Shown here: in pieces, positions 37,110-43,455 of the stretch
How the letters are laid out: the number at the start of each line of letters is the position of its first letter
Numbering within the stretch: position 1 is the first letter of the stretch
Assembly (NCBI RefSeq): GCF_000685155.1
Contig: NZ_JMIY01000003.1
Span: 167,575-231,574 of the forward strand
Reading direction: 5' to 3'
DNA length: 64,000 nucleotides
Source of the DNA: Candidatus Methanoperedens nitratireducens
GTDB taxonomy: Archaea > Halobacteriota > Methanosarcinia > Methanosarcinales > Methanoperedenaceae
The notes under the pieces: model-generated
Databases searched by the model: none
What the model was told of the DNA's origin: nothing
Seen by the model: the letters and a program-made list of their open reading frames with translations, nothing else
Program-made: the position numbers and the translations under genes

Positions 37110-37796
37110 TTAAATATGCCCTGCCTCTCTCATGCTAAAATGCCGCCCATCTCCTATTATAACATGATCAAGTACGTCGATTCCTATAATTTTTCCAGCC
37201 TCTATCAATTTCTTTGTTATCTCTATATCTTCCCTGCTCGGTGTTGGATCACCGGATGGATGGTTATGAGCCAGGATTATGTGCGCTGCTGATACTGCCA
37301 GTGCAGCCTTAAATACTTCTCTTGGATGTACGATGTTGGCGTTGAGCGATCCGATAGAAATAATCTCCTCTTTGATTATCTGGTTTTTGGTATCCAGACA
37401 GAGCTCGATAAAATTCTCTTTTTTCTGTTCCCTCATCCTGGGGTAGATTCGCCTGTAGACATCCTCAGGTGAGTTGATCTTTGGTTTTGCATCCTCATTA
37501 AAGGATTCAAGCCTTCGTGCGATCTCAAAACATGATGCAATCTGCGCTGCTTTACTCTCCTTGATCCCATGGATCTTCATTAATTGGTCAGGGCTTATCT
37601 GTGAGAGCTGCTTCAGGTTGTATTGTGATAATATCCTCTGGCATAGATTGATCACGTTCTCCTGTCTTGAGCCCGTCCTCAGGATTATGGCCAGAAGCTC
37701 AGAATCACTCAGCGCAGCCGCGCCATTCTTTATGAGTCTTTCCCTTGGCCTCTCTTCTTTTTGCATATCAAGGATTCTGATCTTGTACTCCTGCAT
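37110..37796 (-). CDS. radC: RadC-family JAB/MPN-domain protein
   Basis: A 228-residue RadC homologue. The N-terminal helix-hairpin-helix region (LMKIHGIKESKAAQI) is followed by the JAB metal site HNHPSGDPTPSREDI. The DNA-repair role given to this family in old annotations is doubtful; many members travel with mobile or defence loci. It ends one base before mobA. It is divergent from the flippase at 37879. Confidence 0.9.
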   Translation of the reverse strand: MQEYKIRILDMQKEERPRERLIKNGAAALSDSELLAIILRTGSRQENVINLCQRILSQYNLKQLSQISPDQLMKIHGIKESKAAQIASCFEIARRLESFNEDAKPKINSPEDVYRRIYPRMREQKKENFIELCLDTKNQIIKEEIISIGSLNANIVHPREVFKAALAVSAAHIILAHNHPSGDPTPSREDIEITKKLIEAGKIIGIDVLDHVIIGDGRHFSMREAGHI

Positions 37797-37878
37797 GATT
37801 CCTCTTAATTATTTTAATAGATTAAAATCTTTGCAGGAATCAAGGTTTAAGCCTTCCACATCCATACTACACGCAAAC

Positions 37879-39132
37879 ATGCATCCAGACATAAAAAGAT
37901 ACATTGGCGACCCTCTTTACAGGAACTCCTTCTTTATCATGCTCACATCGATAACCGGTGCAGGCTTTGGCTTCTTCTTCTGGATGCTCGCAGCGAAACT
38001 CTATCCGAAGGAGGATGTGGGGCTTGCAACAGCACTTATCTCTTCTATGAGTCTTATCATACTGCTATCCAGATTTGGCCTGGATACTACCATAATCCGC
38101 TTTTTTCCATCGAATGACAAAAGCAGAGTTTTCAATACATCTGTACTCATAACGACTGCTTTTGCGGTTGTTTTCGGAGCAGTATTCATCCTTGGAGTGG
38201 ATATACTCTCACCGCAGTTAAGCCTATTAGGATCACCTTTGAACTCAACTCTCTTCCTGATCTTTCTTGCTGCAAATTCTGTTGCCACTTTAACAAGCGT
38301 CTCGTTTGTTGCAATTCGAAGAGCAGGGTTTAATTTTCTCCAGAGCCTTGTGGTCGGCTCAAGAATACTCTTTCTTATCCCGCTTATAGCACTTGGGGCT
38401 ATCGGCATCTTCGGCGCAGTTGGGATCTCGTTTGTACTTGCGTTTATTGTAGCGCTTGCTTTTCTTGCCCGGTATGGGATCAGGCCAAAGCTCACTATCG
38501 ACAGGGTGTTCCTTAATGATTCCCTGCATTTCTCGGCCGGGAATTATGCTTCCGGGCTGCTCATGGCAGCTCCAAATATGATTCTGCCGATTATGGTCCT
38601 GAATGTACTGGGGGCTGAGGAGGCAGCACATTATTACATAGCTTTTGCAATCGCATCACTGCTTTTTATGATCCCCACTGCCATAAGCACATCCCTCTTC
38701 GTTGAGGGAAGCCACGGAGAAGCGCTGAAAAATACTACCATAAGATCAATTGCAGCGGTTTTTTTGCTTCTAACTCCCGCAATTGTGATCCTTTATTTTG
38801 CTGGTGGCTGGCTGCTCGGGATCGTTGGCAGGGATTATGCTGCAAGCGGGCTTGAACTTTTGAGAATTATGGTTCTTTCAAGCTTTTTTGTTGCCGTGGT
38901 TTTTGTTTATTTCTCGATAAAGAAGGTTCAGAAGGATGTTAAAGGGCTGGTTTTACTGAGCGGGCTTTTGTTCGCTTTACTTACCGGGTTGAGCTATGCT
39001 TTTATGCTCTGGTTCGAGATTACTGAAGTCGGGTATGCATGGCTGGTGGGCTATGGAATTGGGAGCAGTACAGCATTATGGGTATGGATGGTGGGGTGGG
39101 TGCGCCGGTTGCAGCGGGAGGATAGCATGTAG
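37879..39132 (+). CDS. Polysaccharide flippase (MOP/PST family)
   Basis: A 417-residue membrane protein with about 12 hydrophobic helices. It opens MHPDIKRYIGDPLYRNSFF and has KEDVGLATALISSMSL after the first helices, a signature shared with the flippase at 47772. I chose the ATG at 37879: frames extending further upstream run through the divergent radC gene. It is one of two intact members of this subfamily; fragments of further members lie at 40306, 41521 and 42555. It ends in TAG. Confidence 0.9.
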   Translation: MHPDIKRYIGDPLYRNSFFIMLTSITGAGFGFFFWMLAAKLYPKEDVGLATALISSMSLIILLSRFGLDTTIIRFFPSNDKSRVFNTSVLITTAFAVVFGAVFILGVDILSPQLSLLGSPLNSTLFLIFLAANSVATLTSVSFVAIRRAGFNFLQSLVVGSRILFLIPLIALGAIGIFGAVGISFVLAFIVALAFLARYGIRPKLTIDRVFLNDSLHFSAGNYASGLLMAAPNMILPIMVLNVLGAEEAAHYYIAFAIASLLFMIPTAISTSLFVEGSHGEALKNTTIRSIAAVFLLLTPAIVILYFAGGWLLGIVGRDYAASGLELLRIMVLSSFFVAVVFVYFSIKKVQKDVKGLVLLSGLLFALLTGLSYAFMLWFEITEVGYAWLVGYGIGSSTALWVWMVGWVRRLQREDSM

Positions 39133-39380: not shown

Positions 39381-39556
39381 TGATAGTTGGGCTGGGGGTA
39401 CGTGGCTCTTTTGAAGTACGGGCTGGTGGGGCTGGGGTGTGCTGGGGGCGAATGCGATGGTGATGAAGGAGGGATGGGCTTAGGAAAAAGGAAGAATTGT
39501 TAACATAAAGATATATAGATGAAAAACAGATAAACCTAATTAACGAGAGAATTTTC

Positions 39557-39808
39557 ATGTCAGAGCCCAGTATTATCGATGAAAAAGCGAAAGAAATTTA
39601 TGAAACTCACAGGGAAGAATTGGAGAAATTGTATCAGGGGAAGATAATTGCCATAGATATTGATGAAAACAGCATTGTAGCTGTTGGAGAGTATGCCAGT
39701 GAAGTAGGTCTTGAAGCAAAGAAGAAAAGACCACATCATAGGATATTCATGCGGAGAGTAGGTAAAAACCCCTCAGTTGTCCGGCTGAAGAATCGAAAAT
39801 ATGTCTGA
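39557..39808 (+). CDS. Small partner of a retropepsin-like protein
   Basis: An 83-residue protein of unknown function. The first 30 residues are helical and acidic (KAKEIYETHREELEKLYQGK). Then comes a beta strand pattern (IIAIDIDENSIVAVGE) and a basic C-terminus. It overlaps the start of the next gene by 8 bases, the spacing of a two-gene unit. The position between flippase sequences, where the other slots hold TA pairs, suggests a comparable module; that is inference. Confidence 0.65.
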   Translation: MSEPSIIDEKAKEIYETHREELEKLYQGKIIAIDIDENSIVAVGEYASEVGLEAKKKRPHHRIFMRRVGKNPSVVRLKNRKYV

Positions 39809-40172
39809 GAAGGCTATTTTCGAATATATCGATAATGACCCTCTGATTTTGATCACTCTTATTAATCCCGTTTCCAATAAAAAGGCGAGGGCTTATGCAT
39901 ATCTTGATACCGGCTCAGATACTGTTGTTATACCCAGGGATCTCTGGATAAAGCTTGGGTTGGAAATGCATAACCGTGCCAGCGCGAGCGCGGTGGGAGG
40001 CATCGTTACAACGTGGTATAGCTGGGTACATATGCAATTCCTTGGAGACGAACATAGAGATATTATCGCTTTTTACCAGGATGAAGGAGATGTTTTGATT
40101 GGACGGAGCGTTATCGATAAGTATTCAGTGACCTTTGATGGTCGAAATTCAAGCTTGATCATCGATAAGTAA
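39801..40172 (+). CDS. Retropepsin-like (clan AA) aspartic protease domain protein
   Basis: A 123-residue protein with the single-domain aspartyl-protease signature YLDTGSDTVVIPRDLW near residue 32 and a second conserved block, GDVLIGRSVIDKYSVTF, near residue 95 (the flap/ILG-like motif). Such single-domain retropepsins act as dimers. No signal peptide or membrane helix is seen. It overlaps its small upstream partner by 8 bases. Confidence 0.75.
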   Translation: MSEKAIFEYIDNDPLILITLINPVSNKKARAYAYLDTGSDTVVIPRDLWIKLGLEMHNRASASAVGGIVTTWYSWVHMQFLGDEHRDIIAFYQDEGDVLIGRSVIDKYSVTFDGRNSSLIIDK

Positions 40173-40305
40173 GCAGATACAACTTTTACAATATAAAAAA
40201 TACGTGTCTGCATCCTCAAGGGTTGCGCCCCTTGATGCGTGTCTATGCGTCACGGCGAGCATGACACCGATGAACGCAGATGGCTTCAGGATCAAAACTT
40301 ACCTC

Positions 40306-40541
40306 ATGTCCTTAAAGCAATACTACCCGACCCCCTCTACCGCAACTCCATCGCCATGATTCTGAACTCTGCATTCGGCGCGTTCTTCGGCCTCCTGTTC
40401 TGGATAGTGGCGGCGCGGACCATGTCCTCGAAGGATATCGGGCTTGCGACCGCGGCGATATCGGCGGCGGCGCTGATAGTGGGGCTTTCGAGGCTGGGGC
40501 TGGATGCCGGGCTTGTGAAGTATTTGCCTGAATTATTATAA
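40306..40541 (+). pseudogene. Flippase 5' fragment 1 (frameshifted)
   Basis: Encodes the first ~75 residues of a PST flippase (DPLYRNSIAMILNSAFGAFF, then MSSKDIGLATAAISAAAL) and then stops. Its ATG at 40306 (MSLKQYY) is out of frame with the rest. Compared with fragment 2 at 42555 (tactaccgcgacccc), one G is missing here (tactacccgacccc). High GC codon use contrasts with neighbouring small genes. It follows the retropepsin pair and precedes the UPF0175/DUF3368 pair. Confidence 0.88.
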
Positions 40542-41335: not shown

Positions 41336-41455
41336 AGCATATTTTCTAACAATTCCGCGCGCCTGTAGGTAAAAAAGCAACTAATAGTGCAAATAACAAA
41401 CCGCAGATGAACGCAGATGGCTCAAGCGCCGGAACACCTTCAGCAATTCCCACCA

Positions 41456-41632
41456 GGCGCGCCAATAGAACCCCGTGCAACATCCAGACTTTATGTACTC
41501 TCAGCGCAAGCTATGCCCTCTAAAATGCTCTGGTTCGGGATTGCTGGAGTCGGATATGCATGGCTGGTGGGCTATGGAATAGGGGGCGCTGGCGTTGGGG
41601 TGATGGTATGGAGAGAGGGGTGGGTGTAGGGC
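41456..41632 (+). pseudogene. Promoter-leader fragment joined to a flippase 3' fragment
   Basis: Bases 41456-41523 match the leader block also found before 43530 and 47390 (including agactttatgtactc, 41486-41500). At about 41521 this joins sequence matching the last ~35 codons of the flippase at 37879 (ALWF..GVGYAWLVGYGIG). The join removes the whole gene body. It is the scar of an internal deletion or a recombinational fusion. Confidence 0.8.
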
Positions 41633-41760
41633 AGGATGGATTCACTGCAAAAGGCACTGGAACATACTTAAATACAGATAGACATTATATAAGATTATGA
41701 ATTTAGCAAAGCATTTGAAAGAGCCGATCAGCCCAACTTCAGAGAGCAGGTGAATTTCCA

Positions 41761-41988
41761 TTGCCTTGGCTTAGAGAGATCAAAGGAAAATAAGCAATAA
41801 AAGCTTTTGTAAAAGCTGGAGGAGTTAAAAGGAGCGGTAAAGGCGACCATGTTAATATCAAGATGCCAAATGGACAAATTATCACAATACCAGTCTCAAA
41901 AGAACTTAAAATCGGTCTGATCAAAGCAGCAATAAAAAAAGCAGGATTGACTGAAGAGGAATTCATGCGATTGTTAAAAAGGAGATGA
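41761..41988 (+). pseudogene. hicA: HicA toxin gene with in-frame TAA
   Basis: The frame reads LPWLREIKGK, stop (41791-41793), AIKAFVKAGGVKRSGKGDHV, NIKMPNGQIITIPVSKELK, and ends KAGLTEEEFMRLLKRR. This is the HicA dsRNA-binding-like fold with the catalytic His in GDHV. The stop replaces the Glu of the usual GKEAI segment (GAA to TAA). The toxin is probably inactive unless it starts downstream. Antitoxin hicB follows 4 bases later. Confidence 0.85.
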
Positions 41989-41992
41989 GATA

Positions 41993-42220
41993 ATGGAATA
42001 CACTGTATTAGTTTATAAAGCCGAAGAAGGAGGTTATTGGGCAGAAGTCCCGGCCTTACCCGGCTGCTATTCTCAGGGTGAGACGGTCGAAGAAACAATA
42101 AAAAATGTAAAGGAAGCAATCGAAGCACATATACTTGCTTTAAAAGAAGAAGAGAAGGTACCAGTAGAAGAAGATTTTATCATAGCAAGAGTAAATGTGG
42201 CAGAATCTGCTGCAGTGTAA
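41993..42220 (+). CDS. hicB: HicB-type antitoxin
   Basis: A 75-residue HicB/UPF0150 protein: YTVLVYKAEEGGYWAEVPAL, PGCYSQGETVEETIKNVKEA. The start follows the damaged hicA by 4 bases, with GGAGATGAG as ribosome-binding site. The C-terminus is short and carries no separate DNA-binding domain. The antitoxin is intact while its toxin is broken. Confidence 0.9.
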   Translation: MEYTVLVYKAEEGGYWAEVPALPGCYSQGETVEETIKNVKEAIEAHILALKEEEKVPVEEDFIIARVNVAESAAV

Positions 42221-42554: not shown

Positions 42555-42734
42555 ATGCTCACAACCCTGAAGCAATACTACCGCGACCCCCTCTACCGCA
42601 ACTCCATCACCATGATGCTCAACTCCGCGTTCGGTGCGTTCTTCGGGCTTCTGTTCTGGATAGTGACGGCGCGGACCATGTCCTCGAAGGGATCATGGGA
42701 TCGCAGTGAGGTTAGGCGGCTGGAGTTAATATGA
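42555..42734 (+). pseudogene. Flippase 5' fragment 2
   Basis: Begins MLTTLKQYYRDPLYRNS and retains about 48 flippase codons (to MSSKGS). Homology then ends and eleven unrelated codons lead to a stop. It is closely similar to fragment 1 (40306) and clearly less so to the intact flippases, so both derive from one lost gene. It precedes a VapBC-like pair. Confidence 0.88.
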
Positions 42735-42848: not shown

Positions 42849-43010
42849 ATGAAGAAGGAAGAAATCGAACTTGTGGAAGCAGTTCATAAAGCCAGATTAA
42901 AGAGTACGAGATTACTTGAAGAACAGGGAATTTCAACACTGGCATTGATACTATCAAAAACTCTGGTGGATGTTGTAGAAAATCCTGAAAAAATCGATGC
43001 CTTAATATAA
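42849..43010 (+). CDS. Small VapB-like antitoxin candidate
   Basis: A 53-residue, mostly helical protein (MKKEEIELVEAVHKARLKST onward). It shows no strong family motif, but it lies seven bases before a PIN-domain gene, so antitoxin is the natural reading. A TATA-like 'ctatata' is at about 42815-42821, giving it its own promoter. Confidence 0.6.
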   Translation: MKKEEIELVEAVHKARLKSTRLLEEQGISTLALILSKTLVDVVENPEKIDALI

Positions 43011-43017
43011 ATTATAA

Positions 43018-43455
43018 ATGAAACTTTATCTTGACACCACAATCCTTGCAGCTTTAACTTATTTCAAAGATAAAGATACCAGGCGATATTCCGAATGTAA
43101 CAGGCTTATTAGAAAATGTAATGACAAAGAATCAACGCTTGTTATTTCTTTTTATTCAATCCACGAACTTTTTTTACTGCCTTTTGAATATGAAGATAAG
43201 AAAACGGCTCGCAAGATTGGTCTCGCATTAATAAAAGAAATTCTGAGTATAAATCGAATTGAACTTACTGAGCTTTTATCCCGTGAGAAGAGAATTATTC
43301 ACCAGGATATGTTCTCAATGAGCGATAGAACGGACATTCCACATGCAATCTCGGCGTATGTTGAAAATTGTGATTGTATCGTGACATATGACAGTCATTT
43401 TGATCAGATATCGAATAAAATAAAAGTTTTTGAACCTGAATCAGTTCCAATTTGA
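43018..43455 (+). CDS. PIN-domain toxin (VapC-like)
   Basis: A 145-residue PIN nuclease: first Asp in LYLDTTILAALTYF, Glu in FYSIHELFLLPF, Asp residues in SDRTDIPHAISAY and VTYDSHFDQI. Complete length. Pairs with the small helical protein seven bases upstream. It occupies the slot between flippase fragment 2 and the leader/epimerase fragment. Confidence 0.85.
   Translation: MKLYLDTTILAALTYFKDKDTRRYSECNRLIRKCNDKESTLVISFYSIHELFLLPFEYEDKKTARKIGLALIKEILSINRIELTELLSREKRIIHQDMFSMSDRTDIPHAISAYVENCDCIVTYDSHFDQISNKIKVFEPESVPI

Follow-up and report, generated by a model that had tools for sequence, protein, structure and literature searches.

Small aspartic peptidases of clan AA have been catalogued in prokaryotes, and a protein of A. 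fulgidus was placed among the COG3577/COG5550 peptidases (PMC2642776, from the accessible part of its text). According to the accessible part of PMC11957791, further protein factors are involved with those bacterial A2 peptidases that have been characterised. The DUF5678 family, which is the second component of the system described below, has no function given in its Pfam description. A search of full-text literature that covered few subscription papers and no bioRxiv preprints yielded no description of a pair formed by these two kinds of protein, and DUF5678 was mentioned there only in work unrelated by title.

The locus lies in a stretch of 64,000 nucleotides from Candidatus Methanoperedens nitratireducens, the whole of which is called the window, and consists of two small overlapping genes, P0001 and P0002 (Table 1). 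The positions of both frames and the 8 bases common to them are those reported in the preliminary description. This had also called the partner acidic/basic, in agreement with its composition: residues 1-59 of P0001 contain 14 D/E and 9 K/R, and the tail contains 0 D/E and 8 K/R. As the TATA-like stretch in front of the pair is conserved in the leader alignment, a promoter may travel with the two genes; the stretch, carried along with the pair, is a candidate for this function by its sequence.

Table 1. Features of the P0001/P0002 locus (positions in the window).
Feature	Position	Strand	Description
P0001, partner gene	39557..39808	+	83 aa, DUF5678-like; predicted helix-helix-strand-strand-helix-strand
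P0002, protease gene	39801..40172	+	123 aa, predicted retropepsin-like clan AA aspartic protease, DTGSD type
Overlap of the P0001 and P0002 frames	39801..39808	+	8 nt, ATGTCTGA; likewise 8 nt in relatives L150, L151 and L152
Catalytic Asp-Thr-Gly codons of P0002	39906..39914	+	residues 36-38; read from sequence and alignment
Leu-Ile-Gly codons of P0002	40095..40103	+	residues 99-101; G101 invariant in alignment
Candidate promoter stretch with TATA-like run	39485..39522	+	conserved in an alignment of four genomes, own included

P0002 is a predicted retropepsin-like aspartic protease of clan AA. In the Pfam scan, it exceeds the cut-off of PF13650 (Asp_protease_2; 25.6 bits, cut-off 24.3), and it scores 30.3 bits with TIGR03698 (clan_AA_DTGF), below the curated cut-off of 57.35. 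Among 15 aligned relatives, D36, G38, P45, G67 and G101 are invariant and T37 is nearly so; all three residues of the catalytic D-T-G are invariant in a seven-row alignment. With a profile built from these 15 rows, yeast Ddi1 is matched at E 1e-5, and structures of HIV-1 protease are matched at E 4e-5 and weaker. The AlphaFold2 model (seven alignment rows) has a low confidence (pLDDT 57), and its best PDB matches are the retropepsin-like protease of Rickettsia conorii (E 6.5e-5), which we take to be APRc, followed by HIV and SIV proteases. The hallmarks of clan AA retropepsins are present: the D-T/S-G motif, the flap glycine, the hydrophobic-hydrophobic-Gly motif, of which Leu-Ile-Gly 99-101 presumably occupies the position, and, in the low-confidence model, an all-beta fold. 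A HEXXH zinc-protease motif was not seen by eye in P0002. With the PF13650 cut-off passed and the fold matched to PDB retropepsins, the clan AA domain with DTGSD motif proposed in the preliminary description is upheld.

For P0001, a distant relationship with DUF5678 (PF18929) is supported by two sequence comparisons. The protein scores 18.0 bits, below the cut-off of 23.2 (E=0.0027; 38 of 49 model positions aligned), and a profile of its genus family against a DUF5678 set gives E=1.7e-4 with a probability of 49%. The structural model (pLDDT 72) has no match in the PDB better than E 0.59. No DNA-binding domain was detected by Pfam in P0001 or in the other scanned DUF5678-like partners, and no HTH family of Pfam matches P0001. 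The P0001 family occurs in 13 of 40 genomes, own included. Neither P0001 nor P0002 has a match above cut-off to a known, curated TA family, and PADLOC returned weak matches only.

The two genes form a conserved module. In 294 genomes of the organism's own phylum, 93 DUF5678 places score above the Pfam cut-off, and a retropepsin-like ORF lies on the same strand at most 700 nt downstream of 73 of them, versus 1/93 upstream and 0/93 antisense. Two protease HMMs were used, one of them trained on 22 segments from the first 30 places (28/30 positive); beyond these 30, 45 of 63 places are positive, including L079, which had served to train the second HMM. A downstream protease was not found at the remaining 20 places, 4 of which are contig ends or N runs. 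The start codon nearest to the partner stop overlaps that stop by 4 nt in 25 of 72 pairs and lies within 30 nt of it in 59, a choice of start that is biased toward small gaps. The layout is that of type II TA systems: two small, adjacent, co-directional genes, usually overlapping, with the partner first.

Judged by coordinates, L079 is the only one of the 73 positives that also belongs to the 62 archaeal TIGR03698 places; the other proteases are of a DSGAD-like kind, beyond the reach of that model. Among the TIGR03698 matches, all 23 archaeal DTGF/DTGY/DSGF places have a DUF5678-like or RHH-type partner upstream (split in L014). By HMM, the 61 places other than L079 have a partner upstream in 13 cases, several of which belonged to the HMM training set, downstream in 1 and antisense in 0. 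A partner was found by HMM for 1 of the 27 DTGA/DSGA proteases of the same search. Over this search and the bacterial one below, some genomes (G147, G137, G464) have six to eight TIGR03698 matches, and those of the DTGA/DSGA type that were read are nearly all partnerless.

The association extends to bacteria. In a phylum labelled Chloroflexi after a single record title (251 genomes, 72 TIGR03698 places, 31 of them read), HMMs trained on archaeal rows only detected a partner upstream of 11/11 DTGF/DTGY/DAGY proteases versus 0/20 others, and downstream or antisense of none of the 31. Eleven partner loci were also retrieved from GTDB genomes (three of them, L092, L093 and L099, repeat loci of the archaeal TIGR03698 search), and in six a DTG-bearing protease ORF follows closely. 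As for the rest, the downstream protease ORF ends early in L093, only a remnant without DTG is left in L097, no downstream protease was found in L098, L102 is degraded, and L096 is an intact orphan partner with an unrelated gene downstream.

In 72,556 plasmid records, tblastn with the Tolypothrix proteins found the protease P0004 in 11 and the partner P0003 in 9, all cyanobacterial, with the protease adjacent to the partner every time. The partner accompanies all eight near-full-length plasmid proteases, although both proteins are the same in three of these records and another two records resemble each other. An Oscillatoria plasmid has kept the partner with a protease reduced to its first 32 residues, and two protease fragments on cyanobacterial plasmids have no partner match. 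The Tolypothrix record annotates the partner as "hypothetical protein" and the protease as "clan AA aspartic protease"; no TA gene is annotated alongside. P0004 also gave a weak match (E 6e-5) to an aspartyl protease that PADLOC lists for type III operons of Sulfolobales. Close relatives of P0001, P0002 and one archaeal partner were sought on plasmids as well, with none found; the cyanobacterial branch was the only one detected there. A virus-borne module, as far as non-distant forms are concerned, was rejected, with no relative in phage records (queries P0002 and P0004) or IMG/VR viral contigs.

Several plasmid copies have TA or defence genes as neighbours. A short RelE/ParE gene and the ParD gene that goes with it lie ~20 nt from the pair on Trichormus plasmid A; in Nostoc commune, the distance to a RelE/ParE gene is ~1.2 kb. 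On a plasmid of Nostoc sp. MS1 (L272 3723-4360), the pair is flanked by pglZ and pglX of a BREX-1 operon and is encoded on the opposite strand; an IS630 transposase gene is present farther along. The archaeal and bacterial counts (73/93; 11/11 vs 0/20) reject the possibility that the two genes usually occur apart: in archaea, in the phylum labelled Chloroflexi and on cyanobacterial plasmids, they are usually together. For the DTGF/DTGY/DTGSD forms examined, the partner does occur without the protease, and the reverse was not seen.

Closer to the locus, a search with P0002 gave 16 loci in 11 of 40 relatives, of which 15 belong to 10 of the 24 own-genus genomes. Every intact own-genus protease has the partner (11/11, own included), and so does L164 outside the genus. 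The protease is broken or truncated in L154, L160 and L161, and in L162 a start codon is missing from the expected place. With the partner profile, 25 places corresponding to 24 loci were found, 21 with an intact or broken protease adjacent; all six weak matches of the profile adjoin such a protease. L184 is a decayed partner locus and L189 runs into a contig end. L172 (G565:C1:243524-243751, minus strand) is an intact orphan partner for which no protease was seen; the ORF that follows it downstream, after 268 nt, resembles an aminoacyl-tRNA synthetase by eye.

When 14 kb were compared (blastn, E 1e-10), the alignment of the locus to L150, L151, L152 and L154 was confined to the two genes, beginning with the partner and ending with the protease, and the pair is broken in one of these four. 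Among themselves, the alignment of the four begins ~300 nt before the protease start; L150 and L151 also have a neighbouring TA pair in common, and L152 and L154 some downstream sequence. In 12 comparisons, dN/dS ranged from 0.06 to 0.23 for the partner and from 0.05 to 0.12 for the protease, with several dS near saturation and one value per gene unusable (dS saturated). Both genes are under purifying selection. Since dN/dS is well below 1 in both and the pair alone aligns with four relatives, the pair represents more than a chance arrangement. Around the pairs L155-L158 of four genus relatives, the flanks share many dispersed short repeats, which suggests a cassette-like exchange.

Another explanation would be that two small genes of an ordinary operon came to lie in a TA island by chance. 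Some relatives do lie beside housekeeping genes (L151 near chaperonin and GrpE, L152 near AdoMet synthetase). A housekeeping operon is disfavoured, because the similarity of the locus to its relatives is limited to the pair and because 14 pairs of one archaeal family, described below, share few neighbours in their 1.5-kb flanks: several genes between L008 and L009, one between L002 and L004, and a PIN-like gene between L003 and L004. The conservation of the pair in archaea, one bacterial phylum and Cyanobacteria, together with the proximity of DUF433 above chance (see below), makes a chance landing in a TA island very improbable.

In the window, the pair had been described as occupying a slot of a TA array, and the adjoining slots indeed carry TA genes by Pfam: UPF0175 with a DUF3368 PIN gene, a HicA remnant with HicB, and an unnamed small gene with PIN_3. 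HicA looks broken (window 41698-42220), as profile positions 29-58 alone match, in a 41-aa ORF at 41863-41988, and HicB downstream is open. At 42849-43455, a 53-aa ORF without a Pfam match stands directly before the PIN_3 gene; it may encode an as yet unnamed antitoxin. Between the TA slots lie a long flippase-like ORF and shorter stretches of a gene resembling it (37474-39132, 40239-40541, 41417-41629 and 42555-42734), with an N-terminal piece at 40328-40434 and 42584-42690 and a C-terminal piece at 39004-39066 and 41525-41587. It is as if the TA modules lay in repeated remnants of one flippase-like gene.

TA genes are found near many copies of the pair, not all. Directly upstream of L151 are ParE and a VapB-like gene (below cut-off), and the arrangement of L150 is alike by eye. 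The pair is followed by a PIN gene in L158, and it adjoins a HicB-like gene in L155, a YafQ-like gene (below cut-off) in L154 and a MazF gene in L159; PIN genes also lie within 1.5 kb of L003, L005, L008 and L012. Ten TA-looking neighbours, chosen by eye and then scanned with Pfam, all have a match. By eye, no TA gene was recognised near L153, L161 and L163, and of the 14 RHH-type pairs, 7 have none that was recognised within 1.5 kb on either side. These genomes are TA-rich, and the quantitative control is that of DUF433 only: it lies at most 1.5 kb from 4 of 15 pair loci versus 0.07 expected. Two of the four cases may share one ancestral context, and with the related contexts of G545 and G566 counted once, 3 cases are left (P about 5e-5). 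In a Pfam tally of the flanks (91 ORFs of 10 loci) and of control stretches (146 of 162 ORFs), the control too has TA-like HEPN and nucleotidyltransferase genes among the matches listed (25 of 45 flank and 25 of 128 control families). Taken by its distribution, the module resembles TA systems, with patchy presence, mobile or plasmid contexts and TA islands, and its contexts are not housekeeping-only. The suggestion that a real two-gene module occupies the TA slot is thus strongly supported by the co-occurrence survey and the contexts.

One archaeal family (f7, presumably Archaeoglobi) has another kind of partner. An RHH-type gene lies upstream of the protease at 14 DTGF/DTGY places, 13 intact and one (L014) split. 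One of these partners matches RHH_6 just below the cut-off (E=1e-5; 26.5 bits, cut-off 27), and a profile of nine of them matches PDB 2k6l (E=5e-6). Only 2 of the 14 are recognised by the partner HMMs at E<0.05. A fold shared between RHH partners and DUF5678 is not supported, as the C-terminal half of the former has no detectable relation to DUF5678 in the profile comparison. In L177 (G555:C147), the N-terminal part of a DUF5678 gene looks RHH-like by eye, without a Pfam RHH match, and a DTGF-type protease ORF follows it.

An RHH domain in the partner would also suit a switch of the ImmA/ImmR kind, in which the partner is a repressor or anti-factor and its cleavage by the protease derepresses the pair or neighbouring genes. 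Modules of this kind, made of a COG2856 Zn-protease and an Xre protein, were proposed in the 2009 TA survey (PMC2701414, in the accessible part of its text). However, P0001 and the other scanned DUF5678-like partners are without a Pfam DNA-binding domain, and a role as regulator is not evident for a plain DUF5678 partner, so that such a switch seems improbable here.

Partner and protease are linked further. In L054 (G189:C60:2325-2447, minus strand), a natural fusion was found: one frame of 204 residues, counted from stop to stop, contains first the partner domain and then a protease domain with the DTG motif. Across 22 pairs, the distances among partners and among proteases are correlated (Spearman rho 0.52; maximum of 2000 permutations 0.28; shared ancestry uncorrected). 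Partner and protease types also stay matched in G549, G554 and G566, which have two kinds of pair each. The fusion and the similarity of the trees are indirect hints that P0001 and P0002 may form a complex.

The fusion is odd for a toxin that has to be released and counts against a TA-like role. It suits a dedicated, non-toxic regulatory protease, whose partner would be a pro-domain, an inhibitor or a substrate adaptor that folds, holds or targets the retropepsin; one or a few specific proteins would be trimmed, as by RimB with RimK and RpsF. The tight overlap and conservation of the pair agree with this, and RimB is a precedent of a retropepsin-like protease working with partner proteins (PMC11957791, accessible part). 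Together with the absence of a DNA-binding domain from P0001, the fusion fits an inhibitor, pro-domain or adaptor equally well. Different flanks, decayed copies, patchy presence, plasmid copies and TA neighbours are, on the other hand, unusual for a housekeeping regulator, and this explanation is considered unlikely, if the most credible of the alternatives.

A TA-like system with the predicted aspartic protease as effector is the preferred reading, with a probability of about 0.55. It is favoured by the gene order, the overlap, the RHH-type partners in one family, the plasmid copies, the TA neighbours and the orphan partners. The different flanks, the purifying selection, the decay in some genomes and the presence in one defence operon also fit a TA-like unit. 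Against it stand, besides the fusion, the lack of a detected DNA-binding domain in P0001 and of hits above cut-off to known TA families, the 20 DUF5678 places where no protease was found, the copies with no TA gene recognised nearby, the failure to find the module in phage records or viral contigs, and its rarity among plasmid records. P0002 would then be the putative toxin, and P0001 the putative antitoxin, inhibitor or substrate. In the mechanism proposed, the first gene would provide a small DUF5678-family partner that binds the protease encoded by the second gene, which overlaps the first, and holds it inactive. If the partner disappeared, through stress, through infection or because the island or plasmid is lost, the dimeric protease would be activated and cut cellular proteins, and growth would be slowed or stopped. 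In the archaeal family with the RHH domain, the partner might in addition act as the repressor of its own operon, in the manner of type II antitoxins. Binding, inhibition, toxicity, trigger and substrates are all inferred.

The pair may be an undescribed switch of cellular self-control or defence. There is an about even chance that it stands for a widespread TA or abortive-infection family with a retropepsin-like effector and a DUF5678-type antitoxin, distributed over archaea, the phylum labelled Chloroflexi and cyanobacterial plasmids, and once in a BREX operon. If so, DUF5678 would gain a function, the retropepsin would become a growth-arrest effector, a large group of retropepsin-like proteases in prokaryotes, uncharacterised so far, would be given a role, and the aspartic protease would join the enzyme classes suspected as TA effectors. 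Whether an HIV-protease-like enzyme acts as a growth-control effector in prokaryotes is now directly testable, in an experimentally simple system that includes plasmid copies in named cyanobacterial strains.

Compared with the known systems, P0002 resembles the TIGR03698/COG5550/PF13650 peptidases in its DTG motif, its length of about 120 residues and its predicted retropepsin fold, and differs from TIGR03698 in its DTGSD motif and its score below the cut-off. No partner is named for clan AA peptidases in the family descriptions or in the accessible part of PMC2642776. RimB, RloA and Rickettsia APRc are retropepsin-like enzymes of bacteria, like P0002, but belong to different operons. The accessible parts of PMC11957791 (RimB) and PMC12239564 (RloA) name no DUF5678-like gene. 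Members of DUF5678 (PF18929) head the same kind of pair, whereas P0001 itself is below the cut-off of the family. The COG2856 Zn protease with Xre (ImmA/ImmR-like) is, in the accessible part of PMC2701414, likewise a small protease with a small regulator in TA-like contexts; its catalytic motif is another one, and P0001 has no Xre domain. With type II TA systems (VapBC, RelBE, HicAB), the pair has in common the small partner gene in first place, the overlap, the location in TA islands and on plasmids and, in some cases, an RHH partner. The effectors of those systems are nucleases, while here the effector would be a predicted aspartic protease.
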